DNA from: a bacterium
GTDB lineage: Bacteria > DYJV01 > JALVYZ01
Assembly (NCBI GenBank): GCA_027037705.1
Contig: JALVYZ010000062.1
Coordinates: 1 to 15,521 of the forward strand
Direction of reading: 5' to 3'
Length of the DNA stretch: 15,521 nucleotides
Shown here: positions 1-15,426 of the stretch, in pieces
Numbering within the stretch: position 1 is the first letter of the stretch
How the letters are laid out: each line of letters opens with the position of its first letter
The notes under the pieces: model-generated
Database searches by the model: none
The model's input: the letters and a program-made list of their open reading frames with translations, nothing else
Told to the model about the DNA's origin: nothing
Program-made: the position numbers and the translations under genes

Positions 1-1262
1 TCTAATTTTTCTCTAACAGCTTCAATACATTGCTTCATCCCACAAGAAGAAATTTTAAGCCCCATTGGAGTTACTTGATTTTCCTCATTTGCATTTATTA
101 ACCTTAGTTCAACAGGATCTATTTTAGCTAATTTTGCAAGTTCATCTATATTTGATTCAATTGCAAATGTTGCTTGAGGATTACCATAACCTCTGAATGC
201 CTGGGCATAAATATTATTTGTGTAAACACATGTAGCTTTGAAGTAAACTGCTGGAACTTTATATAAAGAACTCATTGGGACAAACATAACAGAAGGAGTT
301 GTAGCTCCCCAAGATGTATAAGCTCCATTATCAAGTAAAGCCGTGGCTTCTCTAAATGTTAACTTTCCATTTTCATCACATCCCTGAGTTATTTCAATAA
401 TCGTTGGTTGCCTTGGTACCATTCCAACAAATTCTTCTTCACGAGAAAATAAAATTTTCACTGGCTTTCCAGTCATATATGATAAAATTATAGCAATAAA
501 ATCATGACAGTGAGTATCAAGTTTATTACCAAATGCACCACCTATTGCTGGAGAAATAACTCTTACTTTTTTGTCTCCAAGTCCCAGGGCTTTCATTAAA
601 TCGTAAAAATCAGCTTGAGCTAAAAAAGGAATTTGAGTTGGCATCCATACAGTTAAATTTTTATTTATATCAAACTCTGCAATAATACCTGTTGTTCCCA
701 TACAGCAATGATGAACCCATGTAGTTTTGTAAGTGCTTTTGACTATATATTTAGATTTTTTCTTCCATTCATCAATATCTCCATGGGATATTTCCCAATT
801 TAAAGGAAGAATATTTGATTTGTTTCTCTCATGAATAATAGGAGCACCTTCTTTTAATGCTTCTTCAGGAGTAAAAACTCCAGGTAAAGGTTCATACTCT
901 ATTTCTATCAAATTAATTGCTTCTTCTGCAATTTCAGGAGATATTGCTGCCACTGCAGCTACTTCATCTTTAAAATTTCTAACTTTATCATATTTTATAA
1001 CTGGATTGTCTTTCATAAAACCTATTGCAAAATTTTTTACTGGATTGGTATCTCTCGTGAGAATTGCTTTAACTCCAGGAACCTTTTTAGCTTTTGAAAT
1101 ATCTATATTTACAATTTTGGCATGAGCATATTCACTTCTTTTAATTTTAGCATAAAGCATATTTTTTCTTTTCAAATCATGAATATATTGAGCTTCTCCT
1201 AATATTTTTTCAGGAGCGTCTAATTTTGGAACTGGCTTCCCTATAAATTTAAAATTACTCAT
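1..1262 (-). CDS. Molybdenum hydroxylase (xanthine dehydrogenase family) large subunit L2, C-terminus outside window
   Basis: This is an open frame of 420 codons from ATG at 1262 to the left edge with no stop, so the gene is partial. It is the molybdopterin-binding large subunit of a xanthine dehydrogenase/CoxL-type hydroxylase, which adds water-derived oxygen to a heterocycle or aldehyde carbon. The N-terminal domain is typical (residues 1-130 or so). The moco-binding GGAFGNK motif is at 241-247 and the canonical FRGYGNPQ loop at 356-363. In the substrate-pocket motif, normally H-x-x-[LM]-E-[PT], I read HHCCMGTTG (184-192), with Gly189 in the Glu position. The C-terminal catalytic-Glu segment lies beyond the window. 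The start is 9 bases after the 2Fe-2S subunit stop and preceded by AGGAGGT, so translation is coupled in an M-S-L operon. About 41 of the first 70 residues are identical to L1 (13138-15426) by hand alignment. The substrate is unknown. Confidence 0.9.
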   Translation of the reverse strand, partial: MSNFKFIGKPVPKLDAPEKILGEAQYIHDLKRKNMLYAKIKRSEYAHAKIVNIDISKAKKVPGVKAILTRDTNPVKNFAIGFMKDNPVIKYDKVRNFKDEVAAVAAISPEIAEEAINLIEIEYEPLPGVFTPEEALKEGAPIIHERNKSNILPLNWEISHGDIDEWKKKSKYIVKSTYKTTWVHHCCMGTTGIIAEFDINKNLTVWMPTQIPFLAQADFYDLMKALGLGDKKVRVISPAIGGAFGNKLDTHCHDFIAIILSYMTGKPVKILFSREEEFVGMVPRQPTIIEITQGCDENGKLTFREATALLDNGAYTSWGATTPSVMFVPMSSLYKVPAVYFKATCVYTNNIYAQAFRGYGNPQATFAIESNIDELAKLAKIDPVELRLINANEENQVTPMGLKISSCGMKQCIEAVREKL

Positions 1263-1271
1263 ATAAACCTC

Positions 1272-1739
1272 CTATTTCTTCCATAACGATTTTACTGCAT
1301 CAATTATCTGAATATAACCTGTACATCTACATAGATTTCCTGCTAATGCTCTTTTTATCTCCTCTTCTGTTACATCTTCTCTATCTTTATTTTCTCTATA
1401 AAATGCCTCTGTTGACATAATCATTCCTGGAGTACAGAATCCACATTGAACTGCGCCATTTTCCCAGAAAGCTTTCTGAATTAAACCAAAATCTCCATCA
1501 TTTTGCATCCCTTCAATGGTAATAACTGTTTTACCGTCAACTTCAACAGCAGGATACAAACAGCTATTTATATTTTTCCCATCTACTAACACAGTACATG
1601 CGCCACATTCTCCAATTCCACAACCTTCTTTTACACCTGTTAATCCTAAATTTTCCCTTAAAACATCTATAAGCATTGTATCTTCTCTGACTGCAACTTC
1701 AACAACATCTCCATTTAATATAAATCTAATTGTTTTCAT
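1272..1739 (-). CDS. Molybdenum hydroxylase 2Fe-2S subunit (CoxS/XdhC-like)
   Basis: This 155-residue protein has the normal length for the small iron-sulfur subunit of molybdenum hydroxylases. The N-terminal plant-ferredoxin-like domain carries Cys40, 45, 48 and 60 (CGIGECGAC and a later Cys). The C-terminal helical domain carries Cys99, 102, 137 and 139 (QCGFCTPG and LCRCTGY). All eight ligands of the two 2Fe-2S clusters are therefore present. It passes electrons from the molybdenum centre in the large subunit to FAD in the medium subunit. It lies 16 bases after the M gene and 9 bases before L2, with a GAGGT ribosome binding site, giving an M-S-L operon. There is no signal peptide, so it is cytoplasmic. 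The family is certain; the partner is most likely L2, though L1 is possible. Confidence 0.96.
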
Positions 1740-1755
1740 TTTTTACCTCATTTAC

Positions 1756-2622
1756 CTAAATTAATTTTGCTCTTTTATACGCAATCATTCCCACTCTTTT
1801 AATATATGCTTTAATTATCTCTCTTTTATGCCATTCTTTTCCTCTTATATCATCAATTGGCGAACATTCTTTTTTTGCTATATTTCCAGCTTGTTCTAAA
1901 ATTTCTTCTGAAAATTTTTTATGAATTAAAAATTCTTCTGTACCAGTAGCTCTTATTGGAGTAGGAGCAACAGTTGTTAATCCTACTTTAATATCTTCGA
2001 TTATATCATCATCTCCAATTTTTATATTCATTGCCACTCCAGCATTTGCTAAATCCATAGCATTTCTTTTCATAAATTTATAATAAGCTGAACCTGAATT
2101 CTTTACTGGTTTTTTAAGTAAAAAACCTTTAACAATCTCTTCTTCAGCGAGAAAAACTTGTTTTGGACCTTTAAAAAATTCATCTAAAGGAAGTTCCCTT
2201 TCCTTAAAATCATCCATAATAATTACAACTTTTGCATCATAAATTAATAATGGACTGGCAGTATCTGCTCCTGGAGAAGCATTAACAATATTTCCACCAA
2301 TTGTTCCAACATTTCTTATTTGAACTGAAGCCATATTAATAAGAGCATCATATAATGCTGGAAAATATTTTCTTACAACTTCAGATTGTTCAAGCTCTCT
2401 TAAAGTTGTTCCTGCTCCAATAAAAACAAACTTTTCATTTTCTTCTATTCCTTTAATTTCATTCAAATTCCTTAAAGAAATAAGTGCATCAGGTTTTATA
2501 GCTTTTTTCTTGATTAAAACAAAAATATCTGTGCCTCCAGCGACATATTTTGAATTTTTATATTCTTTTTTTAAATATATTGCTTCACCTACAGAACCTG
2601 GTTTAAAATATCTAAAGTTCAT
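1756..2622 (-). CDS. Molybdenum hydroxylase FAD-binding subunit (CoxM-like)
   Basis: This 288-residue protein is the FAD subunit of a molybdenum hydroxylase (CO dehydrogenase medium-subunit fold). It shows the two FAD pyrophosphate-binding motifs of the family: AGGTD at 28-32 and TIGGNIVNASPGAD at 107-120. The CoxM C-terminal domain follows. The length is standard. The extra cysteine-rich loop that holds a 4Fe-4S cluster in 4-hydroxybenzoyl-CoA reductase is absent, and I see a single Cys, near the C-terminus. This argues for an oxidative hydroxylase rather than a dearomatising reductase. It is the first gene of the M-S-L2 group, with a GGGAG ribosome binding site before ATG 2622. It follows the binding-protein gene after a 129-base gap holding a hairpin and a heptamer array. 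Confidence 0.94.
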   Translation of the reverse strand: MNFRYFKPGSVGEAIYLKKEYKNSKYVAGGTDIFVLIKKKAIKPDALISLRNLNEIKGIEENEKFVFIGAGTTLRELEQSEVVRKYFPALYDALINMASVQIRNVGTIGGNIVNASPGADTASPLLIYDAKVVIIMDDFKERELPLDEFFKGPKQVFLAEEEIVKGFLLKKPVKNSGSAYYKFMKRNAMDLANAGVAMNIKIGDDDIIEDIKVGLTTVAPTPIRATGTEEFLIHKKFSEEILEQAGNIAKKECSPIDDIRGKEWHKREIIKAYIKRVGMIAYKRAKLI

Positions 2623-2690
2623 TATTTTCTCCCTGAATTAATTATAAAATTAACTCCTTCTACTTTCAACTTCTACTATATATTTTATCA

Positions 2691-2712
2691 GGCAGGGAAA
2701 AATTTCCCCACC
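2691..2712. other. Short near-perfect hairpin between binding-protein and hydroxylase genes
   Basis: Positions 2691-2700 and 2703-2712 are inverted repeats matching at 8 of 10 positions. The two mismatches become G-U pairs in the minus-strand RNA, so a GC-rich stem of 9-10 bp with a tiny loop can form. On the minus strand no strong U-run follows. On the plus strand TTATTTTTTA follows, but no plus-strand gene precedes it. I read it as a possible mRNA 3'-end stabiliser or weak attenuator after the binding-protein gene, not a proven terminator. Confidence 0.35.
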
Positions 2713-2721
2713 TTATTTTTT

Positions 2722-2754
2722 ACTCCTGACTCCTGACTCCACACTCCCGACTTA
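2722..2754. repeat. ACTCCNG heptamer array at the 3' end of the binding-protein gene
   Basis: Four period-7 units, ACTCCTG, ACTCCTG, ACTCCAC and ACTCCCG, are followed by ACTTA. The last unit contains the TAA stop (2752-2754) of the upstream gene. On the mRNA sense strand it reads as repeated GGAGT cores. Confidence 0.9.
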
Positions 2755-3888
2755 TTTAACCAACTTCCACTTTCCATTAACAACTTGAACCATTACCACA
2801 TCATTTAAACCTAAACCATTATGATCTTTAGGTGTAATTTTATAAATTCCACTTATACCAACATATCCATATGTTTTATTTTCAAGATAATCTCTAATCT
2901 TTTCTCTGTCACAACCAACATGTTTTAACGCTTCCAATACTAAGTATGCTGCATCAACACCATATGCAACCATTGTCCCTGGATAGTATCCATATTTTTC
3001 TTTAAAAATTTTAACAAAATGTAAAATTTTCTTTTTCTGAGGGTCAGAATTTGGAAGTTGGTCAGCCACATAAATTTTTGTTGCAGGCATTAACACTCCT
3101 TCTGCAGCATCTCCAGCTACTTTTAAGAAAATTGGGTCACACTGACCGTGGCATTGGAATAATGGCTGCTTCATTCCAAGTCTCTTTTTATTTTTTGCAA
3201 TAATTCCACCAGCTGGACCAATTGTCCATGCAATAATTGCATCAGGATTTTTGTCTTTTACTTTAACAAGCTGTGTTGTCATATCAACATCTTTTCTATG
3301 AAAACTTTCTGCTGCAACCATTTTAACACCATATTTAGGTGAAAGTTTCTTTGCAACTTTATATCCATCTCTTCCAAATCCATCAGCAGAATATAAAAAA
3401 GCATATGTTTTTAATCCATGTTTTTTCATATATTGAAAAATTTTTCCAAGAGCAACAGAGCTTCTATATGGAGATTTAAAGACATATTTAACAGGTGGCT
3501 TATCAATAATTATATCACTACCTGCATGCATAAATGTTGGAACATGCATTTTATTCACATAAGGTTTAACAGCCATTCCTGAACCAGTAGTTGTTGGACC
3601 AATAATTACACAAACCTTGTCCTGCTCAACAAGTTTCTTTGCCCCAAGAAGAGCTTTTGTAGGATTCATTTGAGTATCAACTTCAATTAATTCAATTTTT
3701 TTACCATTAATTCCTCCATGAGCATTTGCTTCTTCAAAGATCAATTTACAAGCATTCTTTTGGGCAATTCCTATATGAGCTGCTGGGCCAGTTAATGCAA
3801 AAAGTCCTCCAACTTTAATAACTCCACCAGCAAATAATGAACCTGCAAAACATAAAATAATTCCCAGAATTAATAATAGTTTTTTCAT
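2752..3888 (-). CDS. ABC transporter substrate-binding protein, LivK/type 1 periplasmic family
   Basis: This 378-residue precursor has a clear signal peptide: KK, a hydrophobic stretch, then SLFA before GG, with likely cleavage after residue 20. The Cys at 13 has no proper lipobox, so a soluble periplasmic protein is more likely than a lipoprotein. The mature protein starts with the branched-chain amino-acid-binding-protein signature (KVGGLFALTGPAAHIG). It continues with ANAHGGINGKKIEL and VIIGPTTTGSG, typical of peripla_BP_6. This family also binds aromatic acids in degradation clusters, which suits the neighbouring ligase and hydroxylase. No permease or ATPase genes of the transporter are in the window. 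A very strong AAGGAGGTG site precedes ATG 3888. The ligand cannot be read from the sequence; an aromatic or N-heterocyclic acid is my inference. Confidence 0.93.
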   Translation of the reverse strand: MKKLLLILGIILCFAGSLFAGGVIKVGGLFALTGPAAHIGIAQKNACKLIFEEANAHGGINGKKIELIEVDTQMNPTKALLGAKKLVEQDKVCVIIGPTTTGSGMAVKPYVNKMHVPTFMHAGSDIIIDKPPVKYVFKSPYRSSVALGKIFQYMKKHGLKTYAFLYSADGFGRDGYKVAKKLSPKYGVKMVAAESFHRKDVDMTTQLVKVKDKNPDAIIAWTIGPAGGIIAKNKKRLGMKQPLFQCHGQCDPIFLKVAGDAAEGVLMPATKIYVADQLPNSDPQKKKILHFVKIFKEKYGYYPGTMVAYGVDAAYLVLEALKHVGCDREKIRDYLENKTYGYVGISGIYKITPKDHNGLGLNDVVMVQVVNGKWKLVK

Positions 3889-3929
3889 AATTCACCTCCT
3901 TTAGTTTTTATAAATATCACTACTTTAAA

Positions 3930-4010
3930 TTAGTGTTAGTGTTGGTGATAGTGTTAGTTTAAAATTTTTTATTATTCATTTTTAACTTTTAATTAAAAGA
4001 TTCCCGACTA
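3930..4010. repeat. Composite repeat: TTAGTG hexamers, AT-rich spacer, short ACTCCNG end
   Basis: Five in-phase hexamers (TTAGTG, TTAGTG, TTGGTG, ATAGTG, TTAGTT; 3930-3959) are followed by TAAAATTTTTT and an AT-rich spacer. One and a half heptamer units (ATTCCCG, ACTA; 4000-4010) then end exactly with the TAG stop of the ligase gene (4008-4010). The same order of parts recurs at 13034-13121. Confidence 0.85.
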
Positions 4011-5300
4011 ATATCTCTTATCAAAAATCCTTTTTGTCTTTCTTTCTGACCTTGGCAATGTTCTATAATCAACTATTTCAACAATTGTATTAACTAATAA
4101 TCTTTTTTTAATTTCAAAATTTATTTCTCTTGCTAATTTTTTATCTTGTGATTTATCACCGTCTTCAGCTCTTTCCACTTTTAAGATCATATAATCTTTT
4201 CCATCATCTCTTCTCTCTAAAATAACTTGATATTCACTACCTATACCTTCAATTTGTGATAAAATTGAATCTATTGAACCTGGATATATGTTTACACCTC
4301 TAAAAATAAACATATCATCACTTCTACCAAGGATTTTATCATGCCTTGGAAGAAAACAACCACAAGGACAGTCATCTCCAATAATGAGCTTTGTCAAATC
4401 TCTTGAACGATATCTTATTAATGGTGCAGCTTCTTTCCATAAAGTAGTATAAACCATCTCTCCTATCTCTCCAGGAGCAACTGGTTTTAATGTTTTTGGA
4501 TCTATAATTTCAAGTATATAAAAATCAGCCCAATAATGAATTCCAGTATGATATTTACAATCAAGTCCTGTTCCTGGGCCATAAAGTTCTGTCATTCCAG
4601 GGATGTCAAATATTTCTTCAGCTCCAGAAAGTTCTTTAATTTTCCTAATTATTGCATCAGAAGTCCTTTCAGAACCAAGAATTATTTTTTTCAAATTAAT
4701 TTTATCTCTTACACCTCTCCTATTTATTTCCTCTGACATTAATAATGCCATTGAAGCTGTACAGCACATAACAGTTGATTGAAAATCAATTAAAAATTCT
4801 ATCTGCATATCAAGATTCCCTGGTCCAGTTGGAATCGCCATTGCTCCATACTTTTCACATGCAAGCTGAAATCCAACTCCCGCTGTCCACACCCCATATC
4901 CTACACATATTTGAACTCTGTCTTCAGGAGTTAATTCTGCCATTTCATAACATCTTGCAAACATATAAAGCCAGTCATCAATATCTTTCTGAGTATAGCA
5001 TAAAATTTTTCTTTTTCCTGTGGTCCCACTTGAAGCATGTATTCTTACAATATCCTTAAAATCCACGCTTCTTAAAGGAAAAGGATAACCTGCTCGTAGA
5101 TCATCAGCAGTTGTAAATGGTAATTTTTCAATATCTTCAAGAGATTGGATATCATCAGGTTTTACCCCTGCCTCATCAAATTTCTTTTTGTAAAATGTAG
5201 AATTGTTATATGCATGATTTACAGTCCATTTTAACCTTTCAAGCTGTAATTTTTTTAATTCTTCCATATTATTAACTTTTGGAGGAAATCTCTTTAACAT
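4008..5300 (-). CDS. paaK: Phenylacetate-CoA ligase family (PaaK-type) aryl-acid CoA ligase
   Basis: This 430-residue AMP-forming acyl-CoA synthetase is at the usual PaaK length. The ATP phosphate loop SSGTTGK is at 90-96. The adenylation motif GMTELYG is at 235-241 and RYRSRDLT at 296-303. The PaaK C-terminal signature GRSDDMFIFRGVNIYP is at 325-340. A C-terminal LPRSERKTKR segment supplies the lysine expected near the adenylate (421/423). CPCGC lies at 311-315. The enzyme activates an aromatic acid to its CoA thioester with ATP. Indoleacetate-CoA ligase (IaaB) of Aromatoleum belongs to this same family, and the hydantoinase and mutase neighbours favour an N-heterocyclic acetate over phenylacetate. 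That is inference. The start at 5300 has GGAG at a good distance. The TAG stop sits in a repeat unit. Confidence 0.93.
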   Translation of the reverse strand: MLKRFPPKVNNMEELKKLQLERLKWTVNHAYNNSTFYKKKFDEAGVKPDDIQSLEDIEKLPFTTADDLRAGYPFPLRSVDFKDIVRIHASSGTTGKRKILCYTQKDIDDWLYMFARCYEMAELTPEDRVQICVGYGVWTAGVGFQLACEKYGAMAIPTGPGNLDMQIEFLIDFQSTVMCCTASMALLMSEEINRRGVRDKINLKKIILGSERTSDAIIRKIKELSGAEEIFDIPGMTELYGPGTGLDCKYHTGIHYWADFYILEIIDPKTLKPVAPGEIGEMVYTTLWKEAAPLIRYRSRDLTKLIIGDDCPCGCFLPRHDKILGRSDDMFIFRGVNIYPGSIDSILSQIEGIGSEYQVILERRDDGKDYMILKVERAEDGDKSQDKKLAREINFEIKKRLLVNTIVEIVDYRTLPRSERKTKRIFDKRY

Positions 5301-5659
5301 TTTTATACTCCTACGTTTTTTTGGCTATGGGTTATAGGAAATATTTATGTTTAAATCTCTTAACCATAATCTATAGCCTATTGCCTTTTTCTATAAGTTA
5401 ATTTATTACCAATTAATATAAATCCCTTCAGCCTTCTACCTTCAACCTTAATTTTAGTGTTGGTGATGGTGTTAATTTTTTTGTTATTCATGGTTATTTG
5501 TAGTTATTAATTGTAATTATTAGTAATTTGTTGTTATTGGCATAGGAATTTAGTAAAAAATATTACAATTAACCACTATCCCACTCGCCATTAGCCAACT
5601 CTTCACCGTTCACCGTTCACTGTTCACTATTAAATAACTCCCGATTCCGCACTCCAGAC
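5301..5659. repeat. 359-base intergenic region, a mosaic of short-period repeats
   Basis: No gene is visible. Reading along the plus strand there are: an imperfect inverted repeat (5323-5338 with 5363-5378, 12 of 16 matching); CCTTCNN heptamers (5425-5450); TTAGTG-like hexamers (5454-5477); an AT-rich stretch with loose TTATTNG repeats (about 5480-5545); TTCACCG heptamers (5602-5629); and ACTCCNG heptamers (5637-5669) running into the HyuB gene end. The ligase ribosome binding site is just above 5300. I see no confident promoter, although this is the largest gap and a promoter for the ligase could hide here. Confidence 0.85.
5602..5629. repeat. TTCACNG heptamer array
   Basis: Four consecutive in-phase units: TTCACCG, TTCACCG, TTCACTG and TTCACTA. 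On the sense strand this reads GTGAACNG-type repeats. It is followed within 8 bases by the ACTCCNG array. Confidence 0.9.
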
Positions 5660-5669
5660 TCATGACTTA
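5637..5669. repeat. ACTCCNG heptamer array overlapping the HyuB gene end
   Basis: The units are ACTCCCG, ATTCCGC, ACTCCAG and ACTCATG, followed by ACTTA. The last ten bases overlap the coding end of hydantoinase B: the TGA stop (5660-5662) and the codons for the last residues lie inside the array. Confidence 0.9.
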
Positions 5670-7393
5670 GCATTTCTAATTTTCATAGTCTGTTCAAAAT
5701 CAACTTCTAAAGTCTCTGGATTAATTACAACTCCATAATCTTCTTTTGCTTTTTCTATTGAAACAAAGCCATTTCTCACATCATATAATACTGCATTTAT
5801 ATCTCTTTTGTATGGATGTCCCCATCCACCTCCACCACCTGCTTCTTGATAATAAATTGTCCCTTTTGGCACATTTTCAATTAAATCTTTAGATTTACAT
5901 TTATAAACTTTACCATCAGGATAGGTAAGTTCTATTTTATTAAGTGTTCCTGGTTTTCCACCATGTGCTCCAAATGCAGGTTCAACATCTCCATCTCCAA
6001 AAGTAACAACTTTAGTATTATCACTTCCAATTATAAATTTTGTTATCACTCCAACACCACCTCTCCATTGACCAGCTCCTCCTGAATCTGTCCAGTATTC
6101 ATGTTTTAACAACAGATGGGGTGTTTGATGCTCAAACATTTCATAATCTTGATCAAGTACACCACCAGAGGCATCAATCATTCCAATATGATCATATCCA
6201 TCACATCCTTTTATTGCTCCAGATCCACCTTTTAATCCCATAAATCCAATATCTACATAAGGTTCATTCTTTCTTGGGTCAATTCCAGTTGTTAAAGAAC
6301 ATAATAATTCATCCCATTCAGCAGTTACTCTATCAGGAATTACAGGAGATAATGCCCTCATAATTGCATCAGCATTATTTGGACATAAATGATTACCATA
6401 AGTGGTAGCAGCTGGAAATTTAGCATTTAAAACTGTTCCTTCAGGAATAATTATATTAATAGGTCTGACCATCCCATCGTTATGTGGAATGTCTGGATTT
6501 ATCATCTGTAAGAAAGTTAAAATTGTTGCTGATGCACTTGAGGTAAAAGTTCCATTAACAAATCCTGGGGTTTGAGGGTCTGTATCTGAATAATCAAAAG
6601 TTATTTTTGTGTCTTCAACTGTAATTTTAACTCTTATTGTATAAGAAGATCCTTCATTTCTTCCATCGTAATAACCAGTTGCTTCTCCATAATATACCCC
6701 ATTTGGAATTGTTCTAATTTCATTTTCCATCATCTTTTGAGTTGAATCAAAAAGATACTCTTTATGCGCTTCAAACACATCAACTCCGTATCTATCAATA
6801 AGTTTTAGAAGTTCTCTTTCTCCTACAACACAACTTCCAATTTCAGCTTTCATGTCTTCTTCAACAATCTTTAATCTTATATTAGCAAATATTAAATTCC
6901 AAACATCTTTTCTTAATTTACCTTTTTCATAAACTTTTACAGGAGGTATTCTTAATGCTTCTTGCCATACTTCTGTCGCATTTGGATTATATCCTCCCTG
7001 AACACATCCACCAATATCAGCCTGATGTCCTTTACATGCTGCCCATCCTACAAGTTCATCTTTATAAAAAATTGGTTTATATACAGCAACATCATTATTC
7101 TGATTTCCCATTGAAAAAACATCATTATGAAATATTACATCACCAGGATAAATTTCATCTCTAAAATAGTTAACAATATATTCGCAGACAGGTGCAAGTG
7201 AAAATGCTAATATAGGAAGATTTTCTGTCTGTTCAAGCATTTTACCGTTTCTATCATATAGACCTGTTACAAAATCTCGTGCTTCGCATAAAATTGGACT
7301 TCTTGTTGTTTTCTCAAGAGCAATACTCATCTCATTTGTAATTGCTTTTAGCCTCTTTCTTAAAATAGAAACAAGCACTTTATCTATTTTCAT
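5660..7393 (-). CDS. hyuB: Hydantoinase/oxoprolinase subunit B (HyuB family)
   Basis: At 577 residues this is the normal length for HyuB and much shorter than the roughly 770-residue acetone carboxylase alpha subunit. With HyuA it should form a cytoplasmic ATP-dependent amidohydrolase or carboxylase that opens lactam/imide rings or acts on ketones. Family landmarks are the PGDVIFHND segment (83-91), DVAVYKPIF (101-109), GHQADIGG (122-129), and the glycine-rich end with GGAGQWRGGVG and EAGGGGGWGHPYKR. The usual GGTH in the metal-site region is MGNQ here (95-98), marking a divergent subfamily. GGGGG precedes ATG 7393. It is separated from hyuA by a DUF2283 gene and two repeat arrays. No third (gamma) subunit of the acetone carboxylase kind is present. 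Lactam opening of an oxidised N-heterocycle is the best-fitting role by context. Confidence 0.93.
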   Translation of the reverse strand: MKIDKVLVSILRKRLKAITNEMSIALEKTTRSPILCEARDFVTGLYDRNGKMLEQTENLPILAFSLAPVCEYIVNYFRDEIYPGDVIFHNDVFSMGNQNNDVAVYKPIFYKDELVGWAACKGHQADIGGCVQGGYNPNATEVWQEALRIPPVKVYEKGKLRKDVWNLIFANIRLKIVEEDMKAEIGSCVVGERELLKLIDRYGVDVFEAHKEYLFDSTQKMMENEIRTIPNGVYYGEATGYYDGRNEGSSYTIRVKITVEDTKITFDYSDTDPQTPGFVNGTFTSSASATILTFLQMINPDIPHNDGMVRPINIIIPEGTVLNAKFPAATTYGNHLCPNNADAIMRALSPVIPDRVTAEWDELLCSLTTGIDPRKNEPYVDIGFMGLKGGSGAIKGCDGYDHIGMIDASGGVLDQDYEMFEHQTPHLLLKHEYWTDSGGAGQWRGGVGVITKFIIGSDNTKVVTFGDGDVEPAFGAHGGKPGTLNKIELTYPDGKVYKCKSKDLIENVPKGTIYYQEAGGGGGWGHPYKRDINAVLYDVRNGFVSIEKAKEDYGVVINPETLEVDFEQTMKIRNAKS

Positions 7394-7505: not shown

Positions 7506-7751
7506 CTACATTTCTCCTTCAACCTTCAACTCTTGTTTTTGGATTACATCCTTTTTAATTTCCACAGAATAAAAAAGAATAGTTTTCAAATCAATCTTCT
7601 GTGAAGCATTTAAAATTTCTATGCCAACAATTTTATTATCTGATGTTGTATCAATATTTAAACCTTCTGAAATTTCAATTACGCCTTCAGGCTGAATATC
7701 ACTTAATTTTAAATATAATGCATCTACTTCATCATCATAAAAAACCTTCAT
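7506..7751 (-). CDS. Small DUF2283 family protein
   Basis: This 81-residue protein has the DUF2283 pattern: YDDEVDALYLKL (5-16), then ISEGLNID and KIVGIEILNAS. The function of DUF2283 is not established. Members are often found next to DUF4258/RelE-like partners and are suspected toxin-antitoxin components, but no partner is visible here. It has a good AAAGGAGAG site before ATG 7751. It sits between the hyuA and hyuB genes, bounded on one side by the octamer element and on the other by the ACTCCNG array. Two CCTTCAA units (7516-7529) encode part of its C-terminal ELKVEGEM. It looks like an inserted cassette rather than part of the catabolic pathway. Confidence 0.85.
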   Translation of the reverse strand: MKVFYDDEVDALYLKLSDIQPEGVIEISEGLNIDTTSDNKIVGIEILNASQKIDLKTILFYSVEIKKDVIQKQELKVEGEM

Positions 7752-7767: not shown

Positions 7768-7799
7768 ACTCCCGACTCCGCACTCCAGACTCCAGACTA
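7768..7799. repeat. ACTCCNG heptamer array ending in the HyuA stop codon
   Basis: Four in-phase units, ACTCCCG, ACTCCGC, ACTCCAG and ACTCCAG, are followed by ACTA. The final CTA (7797-7799) is the TAG stop of hydantoinase A on the minus strand. Confidence 0.92.
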
Positions 7800-9905
7800 A
7801 TTATTTACAATCCTTTTCCTAACTTCTTCTTCTCTATCTTTCAAATAAATTGTATAGTTTCCATACATATCCACAAGCACATTATATTCAGGAGTCACAA
7901 ATGTAGTAGTATTGTCCTGTTCTAAAATTGCTGGACCTTCAATTCTATTTCCAAATTCAAGCTTTAATGCATCAAATACATTAACTTCTTCAAACTTTTG
8001 CTGAACTGGTAAAAAAACTTTTCTTGTATTTTTAAAAGCATTTTCTGGACTTTCCCCTTTATATTCCATTTTTAAAAATTTTGGCTTATCTGTCTGTCCA
8101 ACAGCAATTAATCTTAAATTTATAATTTCAATTGGCGTACCTTCATCTTCAAGAGAGTATCCAAATAATCTATTATGTTGAGGATGGAATTTTTTAGCAA
8201 TTGAATCCCAATCTGCATTAAAAATATCTTCTTCTTCAACCTCTATTGTTACTTCATGATATTGTCTCACATATCTTAAATCTAATTGATATATAAATTT
8301 CATATTATTTTCAGGGATACCTTCTGATTTTAAAAGTTTTGCACCCTCTTCCTTCATCTGAACAAAATAATTTTTAAATTTTTTAACATCAGCCATGTCC
8401 ATTCTTGTTACATAACTTTGGACAAAATCGTGTTTTAAATCAGACATTAACATTCCAGCAGCACATAAAATTGATGATTCTCTTGGAACTATCATTACAG
8501 GAATTTCAAGTTCTCTTGCAATCATACAGGCATGATTTGGGCCTGCTCCACCTGCTACAATCATTGGTAAATCTCTTGGATCGACGCCTTCTTTTACTGC
8601 TACTTCCCTAACAGCTGCTGCCATGTTAACATTAATAACATTATACATCCCAGCAGCTGCTTCATAAAGATCATATTTTAATGGTTTTGCAATTTTTTCC
8701 ATAATTGCTTTTTCTGCTTTTGGTTTATTTAATTTAATTCTACCACCTGCAAAGTAATCTGGATCAAGATAACCTAAAATCAAGTCTGCATCTGTGCATG
8801 TTGGCTCTTCTCCTCCAAGGTCATAACAAACTGGACCTGGTTTTGATCCTGCACTTTGTGGTCCCATTCTAAGTAAGCCACCTTCATCAATCCACCCAAT
8901 GCTACCTCCTCCAGCTCCAATTGTAACAACATTTAACATTGGAAGTGCAATTCTTAATCTATTAATATCTCCTGTAGTAGTTGTTGTAGGTTTATTATCT
9001 TTAACAACTGACGCATCAAAACTTGTTCCTCCCATGTCGACAATTAAACAATTATTGTAATTTTGCGCATTTGCATAAAATGTTCCTGCGACAGGACCTC
9101 CTGCTGGACCTGACAGCAAAGTTATTGCTGCTCTTTTCATTGCATTTTCTGGAGAAACGACACCACCATTTGAGGCCATAATTAACAAAATACCCTCAAA
9201 ATCATTATCTGATAATTTTTTAATCAATGCTTTTAAATATCTTTCAAGAATTGGTCCCACATAAGCATTAAGACATGTTGTTGAAACTCTGTCATAAAAT
9301 CTAACTGAAGGTAAAAGCTCTGAAGAAACAGATATATAAGAATTAGGAAGAGATTCCTTTACAAGTTCAGCAACTCTTTTTTCATGAGAATCATTAGCAT
9401 AAGAATGCATAAAACAAATAGCTACTGCTTTAACATCTTCTCTTTTAAATTTTTCTATTTGCTCTTTTGCTTGATTTTCATCAAGGGGAGTAATAACATT
9501 TCCACTCCAATCAATCCTTTCTTTCACTGGTAATCTTAAATATCTCTCAACTACAGGCTTAGCATTTTTATATCTATTGTTATACTGTTCTTCTCTGATG
9601 CCTCTTCTCATTTCTAAAGCATCTATAACTCCTTCAGTAGTTAATAATCCTGTTTTTACTCCTGTATATGTTAAAGTTGCATTAGTAGTAACAGTTGTTC
9701 CATGAACTATAACATCTACCTGTTTCAAAAAGTCTGGAGTTGACAATCCTCTTTTATCAGCCATTTCTGAAATACCCTTCATTGTTGCAATCGAAGGATC
9801 ATCAGGAGTTGACAACACTTTATATATCTCATTTGTCCCATCTGGAGTTGTAAGTAAAAAATCAGTAAATGTACCTCCAACATCAATTCCAATTTTATAA
9901 CCCAT
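7797..9905 (-). CDS. hyuA: Hydantoinase/oxoprolinase subunit A (HyuA family)
   Basis: This 702-residue protein, counted from ATG 9905, is the ATP-binding subunit of the hydantoinase/oxoprolinase/acetone-carboxylase family. It carries the acetate-kinase/actin-like phosphate motif IDVGGTFTD near the N-terminus, then HGTTVTTNA, LLSGPAGGPVAG, VDMGGTSFDAS, IGAGGGSIG and VAGGAGPNHA in order, ending with the usual C-terminal beta-rich domain. With HyuB it should couple ATP hydrolysis to ring opening or carboxylation. An in-frame TTG at 9920 gives a longer frame, but the GAAGGAGGG site sits between TTG and ATG, so I chose 9905. It follows the mutase gene across a hairpin-forming repeat. The exact substrate cannot be told from sequence. 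Context suggests an oxo-indole-like lactam. Confidence 0.94.
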   Translation of the reverse strand: MGYKIGIDVGGTFTDFLLTTPDGTNEIYKVLSTPDDPSIATMKGISEMADKRGLSTPDFLKQVDVIVHGTTVTTNATLTYTGVKTGLLTTEGVIDALEMRRGIREEQYNNRYKNAKPVVERYLRLPVKERIDWSGNVITPLDENQAKEQIEKFKREDVKAVAICFMHSYANDSHEKRVAELVKESLPNSYISVSSELLPSVRFYDRVSTTCLNAYVGPILERYLKALIKKLSDNDFEGILLIMASNGGVVSPENAMKRAAITLLSGPAGGPVAGTFYANAQNYNNCLIVDMGGTSFDASVVKDNKPTTTTTGDINRLRIALPMLNVVTIGAGGGSIGWIDEGGLLRMGPQSAGSKPGPVCYDLGGEEPTCTDADLILGYLDPDYFAGGRIKLNKPKAEKAIMEKIAKPLKYDLYEAAAGMYNVINVNMAAAVREVAVKEGVDPRDLPMIVAGGAGPNHACMIARELEIPVMIVPRESSILCAAGMLMSDLKHDFVQSYVTRMDMADVKKFKNYFVQMKEEGAKLLKSEGIPENNMKFIYQLDLRYVRQYHEVTIEVEEEDIFNADWDSIAKKFHPQHNRLFGYSLEDEGTPIEIINLRLIAVGQTDKPKFLKMEYKGESPENAFKNTRKVFLPVQQKFEEVNVFDALKLEFGNRIEGPAILEQDNTTTFVTPEYNVLVDMYGNYTIYLKDREEEVRKRIVNN

Positions 9906-9909
9906 TTTT

Positions 9910-9918
9910 CCCTCCTTC
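9910..9918 (-). promoter_or_regulatory. Ribosome binding site deciding the HyuA start
   Basis: GAAGGAGGG on the minus strand lies four bases before ATG 9905. It would lie inside the coding sequence if the TTG at 9920 were the start, so 9905 is preferred. Confidence 0.85.
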
Positions 9919-9926
9919 AATAGTGC

Positions 9927-10003: not shown

Positions 10004-11641
10004 TTAAAATATCCTCGGTTCTTTGAATTCACCAAAAACTTCTCTAAATACATTAGCCATTTCGCCCACTGTTGCATAAGCTTTACAGCATTCAACAAGA
10101 TACGGCATTACATTTTCACCTTTTTTAGTTGCTTTCTCAAGTTCTTTTAATGTTTCTTGTACTTTTTTATTATCTCTATTTTTCTTTAATTTTTTTAATT
10201 CCTTAATTTTTTTCTCAGCTGCCTCTTCATCATATTCATGAAGTTGAACTTCTTGCTTTTCCTCTTTCATTTTATATTTATTAACACCAATTTTTATATA
10301 TTCACCTTTTTCAATTCCTTTTTGAAATTCATAAGCTTGTTTTGCAATTTTAGCTTGAATATAACCATCTTCAATTGCTTTAAGCATTCCCCCATAGTCC
10401 TCTATCTCTCTCATCTCTTCTAAAATTTTGTCTTCCATCTGTTTTGTAATTGTTTCCACAAAGTATGAACCTGCAAGGGGATCAACTGTATCACGAAGAC
10501 CAACTTCATCCATTAGAATCTGAAGTGTTCTAAGAGAAATAAGTGCAGATTCTGGAGTTGGAATAGTATAAGCTTCATCATATGAACATAATGCTGTTGT
10601 TTGAGCTCCACCAAGAGCTGCAGCAAGAGCGTAATACGCACCTCTTACAATATTATTCATTGGTTGCTCTTTTGTAAGTCCTGAACCTCCTCCTCCAAAT
10701 AAACCTCTTAAAAATAATACTTTTTTACTTTTCTTTCCTGCACCATATCTTTCTTTTAAATTTTTAGCCCATAATTTGCGGGCAGCTCTGAATTTTGCAA
10801 CCTGTTCCCATAAATTACCGTATATATTGAAGTTAAAAGTTATTCTTCCTGCGAAATCATCGATATCAATCCCTCTTTTTAAAACTTCATCAATATAAAC
10901 ATTTGCAATTAAAATAGCATAAGCAATTTCCTGTGCAGGAGTTGCACCAGACTCTCTAATATGATAACCACAAACACTTACAGGATTACATTTAGGAAGC
11001 TCTTTTGCAGAATATTCCATTGTATCACCAATTAATTTTACAGAAGGTCTTGGAGGATAAATCCATGCACCTCTTCCTATAATTTCTTTTAAAATATCAT
11101 TTTGAGGTGTTGCGCTTATAACCTTTTTGTCATAACCATACTTTTCTGCAACTGCTTGAAACATTGCAAGCATAATTGAGGCAACTGCATTTATTGTTAA
11201 GCCAACTCCAATCTTATCTAACGCAATATCTTTAAATGCAATTTCAAAATCTCTTAATGTATCCACTGCCATGCCAACTCTTCCAACTTCTCCCTCTGCT
11301 TTTGGATCATCAGAATCAAGTCCCATCTGAGTTGGCAAATCAAATGCAACATTTAAACCAGTTTGTCCTTGAGATATAAGCAATTTAAATCTTTCATTAG
11401 TCTGTTCAGGAGTACCAAACCCTGAATACTGCCTCATTGTCCATGCACGAGTTCTATAACCCTGTGGATGTATTCCTCTTGTAAATGGAAATTCTCCTGG
11501 ATCATTTAATTCTTTTTCATAATCAAATCCTATCTCTTTTAAATCCTCTGGAGTGTAAACAGGCTTAACTTTTATTCCTGATAAATATTCTACCTCTAAA
11601 ATTCTATCCTTTTCATCTCTAATATACTTTGCTACTCCCAT
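10004..11641 (-). CDS. B12-dependent acyl-CoA mutase large subunit (methylmalonyl-CoA mutase family)
   Basis: This 545-residue protein is the substrate-binding TIM-barrel subunit of a split B12 mutase. The B12 domain is a separate gene (12082-12477). By alignment with Propionibacterium mutase, the methylmalonyl-type specificity residues are kept: Tyr72 in MRQYSGF (Tyr89), Ala99 in VAFD, Arg190 in IIGRGAWIYPP (Arg207, binds the free carboxylate) and the GYH His227 (His244). Isobutyryl- and 2-hydroxyisobutyryl-CoA mutases differ at these sites. It should therefore interconvert a succinyl-type and a malonyl-type CoA ester. In this cluster that could be plain methylmalonyl-CoA or an aryl-substituted analogue such as (2-aminophenyl)succinyl-CoA. 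A Lys/Glu-rich linker lies around residues 450-510. AAGGAAG precedes ATG 11641. A toxin-antitoxin pair separates it from its small subunit. No MeaB-type chaperone gene is in the window. Confidence 0.93.
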   Translation of the reverse strand: MGVAKYIRDEKDRILEVEYLSGIKVKPVYTPEDLKEIGFDYEKELNDPGEFPFTRGIHPQGYRTRAWTMRQYSGFGTPEQTNERFKLLISQGQTGLNVAFDLPTQMGLDSDDPKAEGEVGRVGMAVDTLRDFEIAFKDIALDKIGVGLTINAVASIMLAMFQAVAEKYGYDKKVISATPQNDILKEIIGRGAWIYPPRPSVKLIGDTMEYSAKELPKCNPVSVCGYHIRESGATPAQEIAYAILIANVYIDEVLKRGIDIDDFAGRITFNFNIYGNLWEQVAKFRAARKLWAKNLKERYGAGKKSKKVLFLRGLFGGGGSGLTKEQPMNNIVRGAYYALAAALGGAQTTALCSYDEAYTIPTPESALISLRTLQILMDEVGLRDTVDPLAGSYFVETITKQMEDKILEEMREIEDYGGMLKAIEDGYIQAKIAKQAYEFQKGIEKGEYIKIGVNKYKMKEEKQEVQLHEYDEEAAEKKIKELKKLKKNRDNKKVQETLKELEKATKKGENVMPYLVECCKAYATVGEMANVFREVFGEFKEPRIF

Positions 11642-11652
11642 GTTTTCTTCCT

Positions 11653-11901
11653 TTATTTTTTATAACTTTCTTTTCTATGGAAAATTCTACCTATTTCAAT
11701 TGTATCATTTACTACATCAAATAATACCCTATAATTTCCAACTCTTAAACGAAAAGCTGGTTGAAAATTAGACAACTTTTTTAAATTAGAAACATTTGGA
11801 AAATTTTTTAATTCTTCTATTTTTTCATAAATCTTCATTTTTTCTTCTTTTGGAATACTTCTTAAATCTTTAATGGCACTTTTTCTAATATTTATCTTCA
11901 T
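11653..11901 (-). CDS. RelE/ParE-family toxin
   Basis: This 82-residue protein has the RelE fold pattern: an N-terminal KSAIKDLRSIPKEEKMKIYEKIEELK helix pair (7-32), KKL (41-43), the core strand FRLRVGNYRVLFDV (50-63), and the C-terminal RIFHRKESYK (72-81). It has the Arg/His/Tyr residues expected of ribosome-dependent mRNA interferases. It overlaps the end of the antitoxin gene by 17 bases (11885-11901), the usual coupled type II arrangement. It ends 11 bases before the mutase large-subunit start, so the pair sits inside the mutase operon. Whether it is active is unknown. Confidence 0.9.
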   Translation of the reverse strand: MKINIRKSAIKDLRSIPKEEKMKIYEKIEELKNFPNVSNLKKLSNFQPAFRLRVGNYRVLFDVVNDTIEIGRIFHRKESYKK

Positions 11902-12076
11902 TCTTTATAAATTCTTCAAATGGAACAGTCTCTTCTCCTCTTGTTTTAGCCAATAAAATCAAATCATTGAAATCTTCTTCAGATACAATTTCAACTTCGT
12001 CTTTTAATTTTCTTAAAAACCAATTAATTTTTTCATAAGTTTCTTTGTTTTTGACATTTATAGTTATAGTATGCAT
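11885..12076 (-). CDS. Antitoxin partner of the RelE-type toxin
   Basis: This is a small acidic protein of 63 residues. Its N-terminal segment (MHTITINVKNKETYEKINWFL) could form a strand-helix DNA-binding or dimerisation part. Its C-terminal acidic tail with VPFEEFIKNED is typical of a toxin-wrapping helix. Sequence family cannot be named with confidence (RelB/Phd-like). The call rests mainly on size, charge and the 17-base overlap with the RelE-type gene downstream. It begins 5 bases after the mutase small-subunit stop, with only a weak GGAG-like site (AGGAGTAAT) that overlaps the end of that gene, implying coupling to it. Confidence 0.8.
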   Translation of the reverse strand: MHTITINVKNKETYEKINWFLRKLKDEVEIVSEEDFNDLILLAKTRGEETVPFEEFIKNEDKY

Positions 12077-12081
12077 AATTA

Positions 12082-12477
12082 TTACTCCTTAATCTCCTCT
12101 TTCAAAAATTTTATTGTCTCTTCAAGTGGAGTTCCTCCAGGAAATACTCCTTTTATTCCTAACTCTTTTAATTTTGGGATATCTTTATCAGGAATTACTC
12201 CACCTATAAAAACAACAATATCCTGAGCACCTTTTTCTTTTAATTTTTCCATTATCTTTTTTGCATAATATAGATGAGCACCAGAATATATACTTAAACC
12301 AATTGCATCAACTGATTCTTGAAGAGCAATATTTACAATTTCATCAATTGTTTTATGTAATCCTGAATATATAACTTCCATTCCAGCTTCTTTTAATGCA
12401 TGACATACAATTTTAGCTCCTTTATCATGCCCATCAAGTCCTGGTTTTCCAATTAACACCCTAATCTTCCTTCCCAT
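12082..12477 (-). CDS. B12-binding small subunit of acyl-CoA mutase
   Basis: This 131-residue protein is a stand-alone C-terminal cobalamin-binding domain of the methylmalonyl-CoA mutase family. The base-off/His-on motif DxHxxG is at Asp15, His17 and Gly20 (KPGLDGHDKGAK). SGL is at 38-40, the SGAH loop at 65-68, and the nucleotide-tail glycines at 92-93 (IGGVIP), all in order. His17 should be the lower ligand of cobalt. It works with the large subunit at 10004-11641 to catalyse radical carbon-skeleton rearrangement. The split layout is common in archaea and many anaerobic bacteria. GAGGT precedes ATG 12477. The upstream gap holds the second inverted octamer element. Confidence 0.95.
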   Translation of the reverse strand: MGRKIRVLIGKPGLDGHDKGAKIVCHALKEAGMEVIYSGLHKTIDEIVNIALQESVDAIGLSIYSGAHLYYAKKIMEKLKEKGAQDIVVFIGGVIPDKDIPKLKELGIKGVFPGGTPLEETIKFLKEEIKE

Positions 12478-12500
12478 CTTTTACCTCTAATTAATTGTTA

Positions 12501-12604
12501 ATGCGTGAATGGGTATATGCGTAAATACGAAATTATTTTATTTATCTCCACATCTACTCATCTACGCATTAACGCATCTTCGCATTTACGCTTCTACGCA
12601 TCTT
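12501..12604. repeat. Inverted ATGCGTNN octamer array, second copy
   Basis: Left arm: ATGCGTGA, ATGGGTAT, ATGCGTAA, ATACGAAA (12501-12532). After an AT-rich centre the right arm has seven inverted octamers in phase (CACATCTA to CGCATCTT, 12549-12604). The right arm overlaps the end of the epimerase-like gene and supplies its TAG stop (12594-12596) and last codons. Confidence 0.92.
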
Positions 12605-13019
12605 CCTCAAATTTAAATTCCCCATCAATAATTTCAGTTAAAACCCCGCACATCTCTTTAGGATAGTTTATAAAAGCATATCTATTTCCAAAAAGTTCTC
12701 TTGGTTTTTCATCTATCAATTTATAGCCTTTATCTTTTAATTCTTTTAATTTTTTTTCTACATCATCAACTTCATACGAAATTAAGAACACACCTTCGCC
12801 GTTCTTTTTAATAAATTTTGCAACTTCTCCATCAGGTGATGTTGATTCCATAAGCTCTAAAGCAACTTCTCCAATATAGTATCTTGCAACCTTAATCTTT
12901 TCACTCTCCGCTATGTATTCGCAATAAAGTTCCAATCCCAAAACATCCTCATAAATCTTTTTTGCTTTTTCTAAATCCTTAACAGCAATGCAAATATGAT
13001 CAATTTTTTTTGCTTTCAT
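12594..13019 (-). CDS. VOC-family protein, methylmalonyl-CoA epimerase-like with altered metal site
   Basis: This 141-residue single-domain vicinal-oxygen-chelate protein is most like methylmalonyl-CoA epimerase: IDHICIAVKDLEKAKKIYEDVLGL at the start, VALELMESTSPDGEVAKFI, a YEVDDVEKKLKELKDKGYKLIDEKPR block, and GVLTEI near the end. Of the usual metal ligands, His8, an acidic residue at 55 (usually Gln or Glu) and Glu129 are present. The His-His of the GxHHIA motif is Phe78-Leu79 here. It may still epimerise the malonyl-type CoA ester for the mutase next door, perhaps with another substrate, or may have another role. TAAGGAG precedes ATG 13019. Its stop lies in the octamer element. Confidence 0.85.
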   Translation of the reverse strand: MKAKKIDHICIAVKDLEKAKKIYEDVLGLELYCEYIAESEKIKVARYYIGEVALELMESTSPDGEVAKFIKKNGEGVFLISYEVDDVEKKLKELKDKGYKLIDEKPRELFGNRYAFINYPKEMCGVLTEIIDGEFKFEEDA

Positions 13020-13033
13020 TTTAGCTCCTTAAT

Positions 13034-13121: not shown

Positions 13122-13127
13122 CTTCTC

Positions 13128-13162
13128 CCTTCCACCTTCAACCTTCATCCTTCAACCTCTTT
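13128..13162. repeat. CCTTCAA heptamer array entering the L1 gene
   Basis: The units CCTTCCA, CCTTCAA, CCTTCAT, CCTTCAA and CCTCTTT are in phase. The array encodes the last residues (LKDEG) and the TGA stop of the L1 gene and extends past it. Confidence 0.88.
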
Positions 13163-15426
13163 TCCTCCAACGCCTTTAATATCTTATCTGGAGTAATTGG
13201 AAAATCTTTTATCCATACTCCTACTGCATCATAGATTGCATTAGCTATTGCCTGAAATGAATTCATTGAACCAAAAAGTCCTGCTTCTTTTGCACCAAAT
13301 GGTCCTTTTGGATCATTTGTAATTACAGCATCAGCATAAACATTTTCTGGAACATCTAAAGAGGTTGGTATTTTATATTCAAGAAAATCAGCATTTAAAA
13401 CTTTACCATCTTTAAAAATATGTTCTTCTTTTAATGTGCTGCCAACACCGCCAGAAGCTATTGAACCTTCATATTGTCCCTGAACACCTTTTATATTTAT
13501 TGGAAAACCACAATCATGAAAACCAACTGCATTTATAATTTTAACTTCTCCTGTGTTTGTATCAACTTCAACTTCAACTGCATTTGCCCCAAAACTAAAT
13601 GTTGTGGCCTGCTGACCCACGGGATTTTTAACCCATTCCCTATCATTTGAAACTTCAGGCATGTAATGTCCTCTTCCCATAACATGCCTGTTTTCTATTA
13701 ATCCTTTTCTTATAACCTTATGCAATGGCACCTGCTTTGATTTATCTTTTTTAGAAAAAACAATTTTATTTTCTATATCAAGCTCATCTTCAGAGCAATT
13801 TAACATTTCAGAAGCTAATTTTAAAATCTGAGCTTTTGCATCTTCACAGGCTTTTTTAACTGCATTTCCAGATACTAAAACTGCTGCCTGAGAATATGCC
13901 CCAACATCTAAAGTTGTAACCTCAGTATCTCCAGCTACAATATGAATTTCTTCTGGAGGTACTCCCAATACTTCTGATGCTATTTGAACCATTGCATGAT
14001 AATTACCCTGACCATTATCTATTACTCCAGAAATAATTGTTGGATACCCATCTTCATTGAATTTTACAAAACAGCTTGAGCCTCCTCTTATTCCCATTGG
14101 AAATCCACACATCATACCATTTGCTCCAATTCCAACGCCTCTTCCAAATGGAAGTTTTCCTCTTTTTTTATCCCACTCTATTTTTTCAGCTGCTTTTTTT
14201 ATTGCTTCTTTTAATCCACAACTGTAAATTTTAGATTTTGTTGCCTGCATATCTCCTGGATTTAAAGCATTTCTTAACCTTATCTCAACTGGATCAATTC
14301 CTAACTCCTCTGCTATCATATCAAGCTGCATTCCAAGTCCACCTAAAAAAGCTCTACCATGGCATCTATACATTCCCCTAATAGGCTTATTTGTGTAAAC
14401 TCTGTATGAATTTAATCTTACATTTTCCAATTTATATGTTTCTTCCCACACTAAGAATGGGACAGAAGCTGCTATTGGTCCTGTACTTGAATACGCACCA
14501 CCATCCATTATAACTTTAATATCCTGAGCTAAAATTTTCCCGTCCTTTGTAACTCCAGTTTTTGCATACATTACCATTGAATGCACCTGACGGGTGCATA
14601 TCATACTTTCCTCTCTTGTATATACAACCTTTACAGGTCTTCTTGCTTTTATTGATAAAAGAGAAGTTATAAAATCCAATGGAAAAATATCAGATCTGCC
14701 ACCAAAAGCTCCTCCAATTGTAGGCCTTCTCACAATTACCTTATTTAATGGTATATGCAATAAATTTGAAAGAGCTTTTGCCTTTGTATGAGGACTTGCA
14801 TTTGGCATCCATATCTCAATTGAACCATCAGAATGATAATATGCAATAACAGCGTAAGGCTCAAGCATTCCATAGCCTTCATCTTTTGATGTGAATTTAT
14901 CTTCTCTAACTAAATATGCTTTTTCAAAAGCTTTATCCACATCTCCAACATCTATTTTTACATGAATATTTATATTATTAGGATGGTCTTCATGAATTAA
15001 TGGGGCACCATCTTTCATTGCCTCTTCTGCATCAAAAACTGCTGGAAGTGGTTCATAATCCACTTTAATTAAATCAAGTGCTTCTAAAGCTGTTTCTTCA
15101 TCAACTGCAGCTACTGCTGCAACTTCTTCACCAATAAATCTCACTTTATCAGACGCAATTAACTGATGATCTCTTGTATATTTAAAAACTCCCCATTTTT
15201 CTCCAAAAGTATCATCTCTTGTAATTACCGCTTTAACTCCTGGAACTTTTTTAGCTTTTGAAACATCTATGTTTAAAATTTTTGCATGAGCTAAAGGACT
15301 GTGTAAAACCTTTCCAACAAGCATATTAGGTAATTTTATATCAGCAGTATAAAGAGCATCACCTGTTGCCTTTTGTGGAGTATCAATTCTCGGGATTCCT
15401 TTACCAAGGATTTTATAATTACTCAT
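13138..15426 (-). CDS. Molybdenum hydroxylase large subunit L1 with altered active-site residues
   Basis: This 762-residue protein is a full-length xanthine dehydrogenase-family molybdopterin subunit. It shows the N-terminal domain, MLEP (187-190) in the pocket motif, moco motif GGAFGGR (238-244), the YRCHGR loop (353-358), a GQGNYHAMVQIASEVLG segment and the C-terminal GPFGAKEAGL (708-717). Two key sites differ. Cys355 replaces the usual Gly of FRGxG, at the position of the S-bound Cys in form I CO dehydrogenase. Leu717 replaces the catalytic Glu of the KGxGE motif. The SR pair usual before the late glycine motif is QA. The rest of the protein looks intact, with no frameshift. GGAGGTAATTAATG gives the start. 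No small or medium subunit genes are next to it, so it may share those at 1272-2622. Whether it catalyses hydroxylation is uncertain. Confidence 0.9.
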   Translation of the reverse strand: MSNYKILGKGIPRIDTPQKATGDALYTADIKLPNMLVGKVLHSPLAHAKILNIDVSKAKKVPGVKAVITRDDTFGEKWGVFKYTRDHQLIASDKVRFIGEEVAAVAAVDEETALEALDLIKVDYEPLPAVFDAEEAMKDGAPLIHEDHPNNINIHVKIDVGDVDKAFEKAYLVREDKFTSKDEGYGMLEPYAVIAYYHSDGSIEIWMPNASPHTKAKALSNLLHIPLNKVIVRRPTIGGAFGGRSDIFPLDFITSLLSIKARRPVKVVYTREESMICTRQVHSMVMYAKTGVTKDGKILAQDIKVIMDGGAYSSTGPIAASVPFLVWEETYKLENVRLNSYRVYTNKPIRGMYRCHGRAFLGGLGMQLDMIAEELGIDPVEIRLRNALNPGDMQATKSKIYSCGLKEAIKKAAEKIEWDKKRGKLPFGRGVGIGANGMMCGFPMGIRGGSSCFVKFNEDGYPTIISGVIDNGQGNYHAMVQIASEVLGVPPEEIHIVAGDTEVTTLDVGAYSQAAVLVSGNAVKKACEDAKAQILKLASEMLNCSEDELDIENKIVFSKKDKSKQVPLHKVIRKGLIENRHVMGRGHYMPEVSNDREWVKNPVGQQATTFSFGANAVEVEVDTNTGEVKIINAVGFHDCGFPINIKGVQGQYEGSIASGGVGSTLKEEHIFKDGKVLNADFLEYKIPTSLDVPENVYADAVITNDPKGPFGAKEAGLFGSMNSFQAIANAIYDAVGVWIKDFPITPDKILKALEEKRLKDEG

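Follow-up and report, generated by a model that had tools for sequence, protein, structure and literature searches.

Gene content and order of the locus

The window analysed here, a whole contig (C62, 15,521 bases) of a metagenome-assembled genome (MAG; 2.05 Mb in 496 contigs), carries a single row of annotated genes, all on its minus strand, that very probably forms part of an iaa-type operon for degrading indoleacetate anaerobically, a judgement drawn from sequence that leaves aside the function of an additional gene module (module A) described below. Both ends of the window overlap other contigs of the assembly, with an exact 127-base overlap between the right end and contig C394 and about 220 nearly identical bases in common between the left end and contig C397; the operon could therefore be completed on both sides.

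The joined operon begins on C394 with CoxM_A and CoxS_A (802–1836 and 252–734 of locus L034), the partners of a 762-aa molybdenum (Mo) large subunit A (13138–15426; this and all following window coordinates are on the minus strand), followed by a VOC protein with the methylmalonyl-CoA epimerase fold (12594–13019) and the B12-binding small subunit of an IaaGH-type mutase (12082–12477). The middle part comprises the large mutase subunit (10004–11641), assigned to the (2-aminophenyl)succinyl-CoA/(2-aminobenzyl)malonyl-CoA reaction, HyuA (7797–9920; annotated from a TTG start, although an ATG five codons in is likelier) and HyuB (5660–7393), respectively the ATP-binding subunit and its partner in a hydantoinase-like, putatively lactam-opening enzyme, an IaaB-like aryl-CoA ligase of the PaaK type (4008–5300) and a LivK-type substrate-binding protein (2752–3888). 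Last come the subunits of a candidate indoleacetyl-CoA 2-hydroxylase, namely the FAD subunit CoxM_B (1756–2622), CoxS_B with two [2Fe-2S] clusters (1272–1739) and Mo large subunit B, whose N-terminal half (3–1262) is cut by the contig end and whose remainder lies on C397 (L184 3–1301), and then a convergent ligA. Divergently oriented on C394 are genes for a class III CoA-transferase, LivH, LivM, LivG and LivF (L034 3325–6674), an acyl-CoA dehydrogenase, a GntR regulator and an amidohydrolase, after which cell-division genes follow. All genes named in the original prediction, made from the window's letters alone, were thus found, co-directional and in one row.

The same gene order recurs on contig C164 of genome G001, the only compared genome in the same taxonomic order as the window's (the next relatives match at domain level only), and at locus L083, so that a chance neighbourhood can be excluded. 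Two insertions set the window apart from the otherwise identical arrangement in G001. A ParE/RelE-type toxin gene (11653–11901) and a small open reading frame overlapping its start (11885–12076, 63 aa, a candidate antitoxin) together occupy 11653–12076 between both mutase subunits, and a DUF2283 gene (7506–7751) lies between HyuA and HyuB.

Clade membership and signatures of the pathway enzymes

The published indoleacetate pathway includes the ligase IaaB, the CoA-transferase IaaL, the mutase IaaGH, the dehydrogenase IaaF and the binding protein IaaM, and orthologous operons have been reported for Desulfocarbo indianensis and Ferroglobus (PMC8360864). Counterparts of all of these proteins are encoded in the joined locus, the class III CoA-transferase being the IaaL-like one, together with a Mo hydroxylase. 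IaaF is a decarboxylating dehydrogenase with a GGG motif where YEG is usual (PMC8360864), and the acyl-CoA dehydrogenase of C394 ends in LLYGGGTSE, that is, with the IaaF-type GGG; this motif is present in 35 of 35 aligned iaa-type dehydrogenases, while the ordinary acyl-CoA dehydrogenases compared mostly have xEG.

In the mutase tree the window's protein falls in a fully supported (100*) clade of iaa-linked mutases, and two paralogues from its own genome that resemble methylmalonyl-CoA mutase (MCM) fall outside it. The equivalents of MCM residues Y89, R207 and H244 are kept in all iaa-linked mutases (one Tyr cell is a gap), which fits a substrate with a free carboxylate; the closest solved mutase, 2-hydroxyisobutyryl-CoA mutase, lacks that Tyr and Arg. 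At 21 nearly invariant positions the iaa-linked mutases, the window's included, are distinct from MCM. The ligase is mostly 61–78% identical to ligases of iaa loci, its next relatives reaching only about 40%, and large subunit B, which retains the Glu of its GAKGIGEIG motif, groups in its tree with the hydroxylases of iaa loci. HyuAB scored below the cut-offs of named families (703.9 and 433.3 bits against 1000 for caprolactamase, 404.3 against 1500 for acetophenone carboxylase). The HyuB, ligase and mutase clades each span dozens of indoleacetate-type loci and are separate from those of caprolactamases, PaaK and the MCMs of the same genome.

A scan of named genomes with a HyuB alignment gave 80 loci at 69–84% identity. 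HyuA, HyuB and the mutase occur together in 50 of these, Desulfocarbo indianensis included, often also with IaaF, CaiB and CoxMSL, and of the 36 loci that exceed 20 kb, 28 have the mutase. The original prediction had read the window as anaerobic indoleacetate degradation; gene set, clades and the GGG dehydrogenase support it. The phylogenies that it had called for place mutase, ligase and HyuAB with indoleacetate-type loci rather than with propionate, phenylacetate or caprolactam/oxoproline clades, and beyond the window edges, where it had expected further pathway genes, lie the CoA-transferase, the IaaF-type dehydrogenase and the LivHMGF transporter.

More distant HyuAB pairs were also seen. 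HyuA and HyuB only 32–38% identical to the window's adjoin an iaa-type ligase and Mo enzyme B at L284 (2–8999), L292 (64–7217) and L302 (230–7429), and a relative in the same identity range adjoins the mutase at L287 (15269–16000); possibly another hydantoinase-like enzyme was recruited there for the same step. A search of plasmids for HyuB gave only relatives of 33–37% identity among the matches listed. At L024 (G000, contig C276), a second HyuAB pair (2195–5733; HyuA 38%) lies beside a TRAP transporter and presumably serves hydantoin or lactam use unrelated to the iaa operon.

Predicted route and identity of the ring

Our own observations cover the gene families, their synteny and the clades they fall in; the order of reactions follows published work on Aromatoleum, and the substrate we infer. 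Indoleacetate would be imported by the Liv-type transporter and converted to indoleacetyl-CoA by the PaaK-type ligase, Mo enzyme B would hydroxylate C2 to give the oxindole, and HyuAB would open the lactam at the expense of ATP to yield (2-aminophenyl)succinyl-CoA. The class III CoA-transferase would then shift CoA onto the other carboxyl, the B12 mutase would form (2-aminobenzyl)malonyl-CoA, and the GGG-type dehydrogenase would decarboxylate and oxidize this to 2-aminocinnamoyl-CoA, from which beta-oxidation would lead to 2-aminobenzoyl-CoA and on to the benzoyl-CoA pathway.

Gene neighbourhoods elsewhere bear on the ring. Five of the named loci (L125, L129, L131, L138 and L144) and two further loci (L057 and L058) have an indolepyruvate oxidoreductase-like gene (IorAB) beside HyuAB, and the ligase was seen in none of these seven; conversely, 17 of 19 ligase-bearing loci lack the oxidoreductase gene, L107 having a weaker match. 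That IorAB stands in for the ligase in at least five named loci supports, without proving, an indole ring. This pattern fits two entries to indoleacetyl-CoA, one from the free acid through the ligase and one from tryptophan through indolepyruvate, and suggests that the ligase-less IorAB loci encode a tryptophan-fed version of the pathway. At L058 an aminotransferase is also found nearby.

Further downstream, BamA, a marker of the benzoyl-CoA pathway, scored above its family cut-off in G001 as well as in the genomes that contain L083, L087, L075, L102 and L130. The HGD-D-type proteins of the window's genome resemble double-cubane or dehydratase-type pairs more than an unambiguous class I benzoyl-CoA reductase; class II enzymes (BamB) were outside this search. 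At L178 complex A and the VOC protein are directly followed by an HMG-CoA-synthase-like protein, which has an OB-fold/zinc-ribbon tail, and by a thiolase (3291–5909); these could provide the thiolase step giving 2-aminobenzoyl-CoA.

Several points weigh against the indoleacetate assignment. It is made from sequence; it is anchored by Desulfocarbo and by the IaaF motif, the Aromatoleum Iaa proteins lying outside the 80 loci compared; and a search at the family cut-off did not find BamA in the window's own fragmented genome. This absence may be an assembly gap, since contig C341, syntenic with G001, breaks off directly behind a hydratase gene whose G001 counterpart is followed by Had and BamA.

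Two other readings of the whole cluster were weighed. The same chemistry might serve another lactam-forming or N-heterocyclic acid, such as a ring-substituted indoleacetate or indole-propionate, which we regard as unlikely: the inferred nature of the substrate leaves room for it, as does the variant in which quite different HyuAB adjoins the same ligase and Mo enzyme, but the full iaa set is present, IorAB adjoins ligase-less iaa loci, and IaaF does not accept short side chains, its preferred substrate being benzylmalonyl-CoA (PMC8360864). It is harder still to credit that the genes are unrelated neighbours, comprising a propionate-type mutase and epimerase, a phenylacetate ligase, a caprolactamase or oxoprolinase and generic Mo hydroxylases. 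The top NCBIfam names do come from those families, all under cut-off except for subfamily-level mutase domain models; yet clade placement, by which propionate, phenylacetate and caprolactam metabolism were each ruled out, the signatures, the order conserved across phyla and the linkage to the GGG dehydrogenase speak against so loose an assemblage.

Two modified proteins in module A

Beyond the shared iaa genes, the locus encodes complex A (large subunit A with CoxM_A and CoxS_A) and the VOC protein, which together make up module A. The closest solved relative of large subunit A, and its companion in the tree, is HcrA of 4-hydroxybenzoyl-CoA reductase (HBCR; HcrABC, PDB 1rm6). Like HBCR, complex A has in its FAD subunit a five-Cys insert for a [4Fe-4S] cluster, with identical spacing (C-x4-C-x15-C-x7-C-x8-C). 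Unlike HBCR, it has Leu or Met at the position of HcrA Glu726 in 48 of 48 A-family proteins (Leu in the window, GAKEAGLFG) and Val or Ile at that of HcrA Y326 in all 42 aligned members, and large subunit A reaches 654 bits against the HBCR family cut-off of 994.55. Glu726, which we equated with xanthine oxidase Glu1261 through the shared GxxGE motif, is Glu in 43 of 43 other xanthine-oxidase-family proteins covering the site, and in xanthine oxidase it is essential for catalysis (PMC10420851). With the catalytic Glu lost, complex A is not expected to be an ordinary hydroxylase, although this loss by itself does not show deamination. Judged by sequence, complex A appears not to be a member of the HBCR family, and we file it in no named family; in G386 and G390 it occurs alongside other, closer HcrA relatives.

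The VOC protein is similarly altered. Its model (pLDDT 92) has the fold of methylmalonyl-CoA epimerase, and two residues of the epimerase metal site (the first His and the last Glu) are kept, but the HH of true epimerases, one His of which we take from epimerase structures to be a metal ligand, is FL in the window and FL, ML, MV or similar in all iaa-linked copies. At 107.5 bits it remains below the methylmalonyl-CoA epimerase cut-off of 114.95, and we do not file it as that enzyme. Absence of Glu43, the base of the Streptomyces epimerase, was not retained as evidence, since an epimerase-like gene beside the G001 mutase paralogue also lacks this Glu.

Counting A-type subunits at 52% identity or more (below which there was a gap down to 44%), we found them in 56 of 395 genomes of the phylum of Desulfocarbo. 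Dethiosulfatarculus sandiegensis has module A; in Desulfocarbo indianensis none was found. When a HyuB match of at least 75% was used to define iaa-type genomes, module A was present in 18 of the 26 such genomes and 38 of the 369 others (Fisher P = 2.6e–11, a value that ignores kinship). Among 42 module A loci examined, 20 are iaa-linked, 18 have genes for a saccharopine-dehydrogenase-like protein and a class III aminotransferase, and three have both; the VOC gene lies by module A in 27. Both labels are scattered over the module A tree, with at least eight changes for the iaa label. At L282 (4857–7352), L286 (5863–8386), L307 (11265–13702) and others, complex A, the VOC protein, the saccharopine-dehydrogenase-like protein and the aminotransferase, which resembles GSA aminomutase, are encoded together in a conserved row.

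Candidate functions of module A

The iaa route would end at 2-aminobenzoyl-CoA, whose amino group would have to be removed before entry into the benzoyl-CoA pathway. Azoarcus evansii is described as having a 2-aminobenzoyl-CoA reductase activity (PMC4539516), and an HBCR-like protein, induced by aniline and 4-aminobenzoate, has been proposed for the para isomer, 4-aminobenzoyl-CoA, in the ani cluster of Desulfatiglans anilini (PMC7500099); we found no gene assigned to the step from 2-aminobenzoyl-CoA to benzoyl-CoA in the literature searched. The D. anilini enzyme, likened here to complex A by description only, shares with it the HBCR-like character and a proposed reductive deamination of an aminobenzoyl-CoA, and differs in its para-amino substrate. 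For this deamination, an iaa-linked complex that resembles HBCR and has the [4Fe-4S] insert readily suggests itself as a candidate. In our best guess, held at somewhat less than even odds, complex A and the VOC protein would use ferredoxin to drive removal of the amino group from the ring. We put this forward tentatively, and leave complex A without a family assignment, because of the aminotransferase/saccharopine-dehydrogenase context: module A also occurs with that pair alone, a pairing for which reductive deamination does not account, and this counts against the proposal. The fuller claim, that complex A is a new, Glu-less kind of xanthine-oxidase-family enzyme that deaminates 2-aminobenzoyl-CoA in partnership with a His-less epimerase-fold protein, is a possibility that we hold less likely than not.

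The context just mentioned could instead mean that module A acts on a hydroxylated or amino aryl-CoA of a second pathway often encoded beside iaa genes, one involving the saccharopine-dehydrogenase-like protein and the class III aminotransferase. This is a real if uncertain possibility, to which the 18 loci with that pair lend weight, 15 of them having no iaa genes in view; set against it are the iaa-linked loci, spread over several separate branches, and the strong enrichment of module A in iaa-HyuB genomes of one phylum. It seems improbable that module A lacks catalytic activity or serves as an electron-transfer or regulatory complex: the replacement of Glu throughout the A family and the disappearance of HH from all iaa-linked VOC proteins would agree with it, but the A family has retained, over large distances, its GGAFGGR and GQG cofactor motifs, its five-Cys insert and both the Fe-S and the FAD subunit, as expected of a working redox enzyme.

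Relation to known systems

The iaa operons of Aromatoleum aromaticum, Desulfocarbo indianensis, Desulfatiglans and Ferroglobus have in common with the window's locus the ligase, Mo hydroxylase, HyuAB, CoA-transferase, B12 mutase, GGG-type IaaF and binding protein. The locus differs in having complex A and the VOC protein, LivHMGF within the cluster, a GntR regulator and a divergent two-operon layout, and in having no electron-transfer flavoprotein genes beside iaaF. It thus appears to encode a known kind of pathway in a deep-branching bacterium, as a variant by virtue of the extra module; the original prediction had suspected as much, pointing among other things to two Mo large subunits and an epimerase-like protein, and both are borne out.

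Gene sets of the iaa type reach far beyond denitrifying Betaproteobacteria, being found in MAGs of Aminicenantes, Planctomycetota, Actinomycetota and many relatives of sulfate reducers, and HyuAB of the iaa clade occurs in some Thermoplasmata MAGs. Module A offers a concrete candidate for the ring deamination through which indole compounds and anthranilate would enter the benzoyl-CoA pathway. Whatever its substrate may be, a widespread clade of the xanthine oxidase family in which the catalytic Glu is replaced in every member seen should be of interest to molybdoenzyme chemistry.

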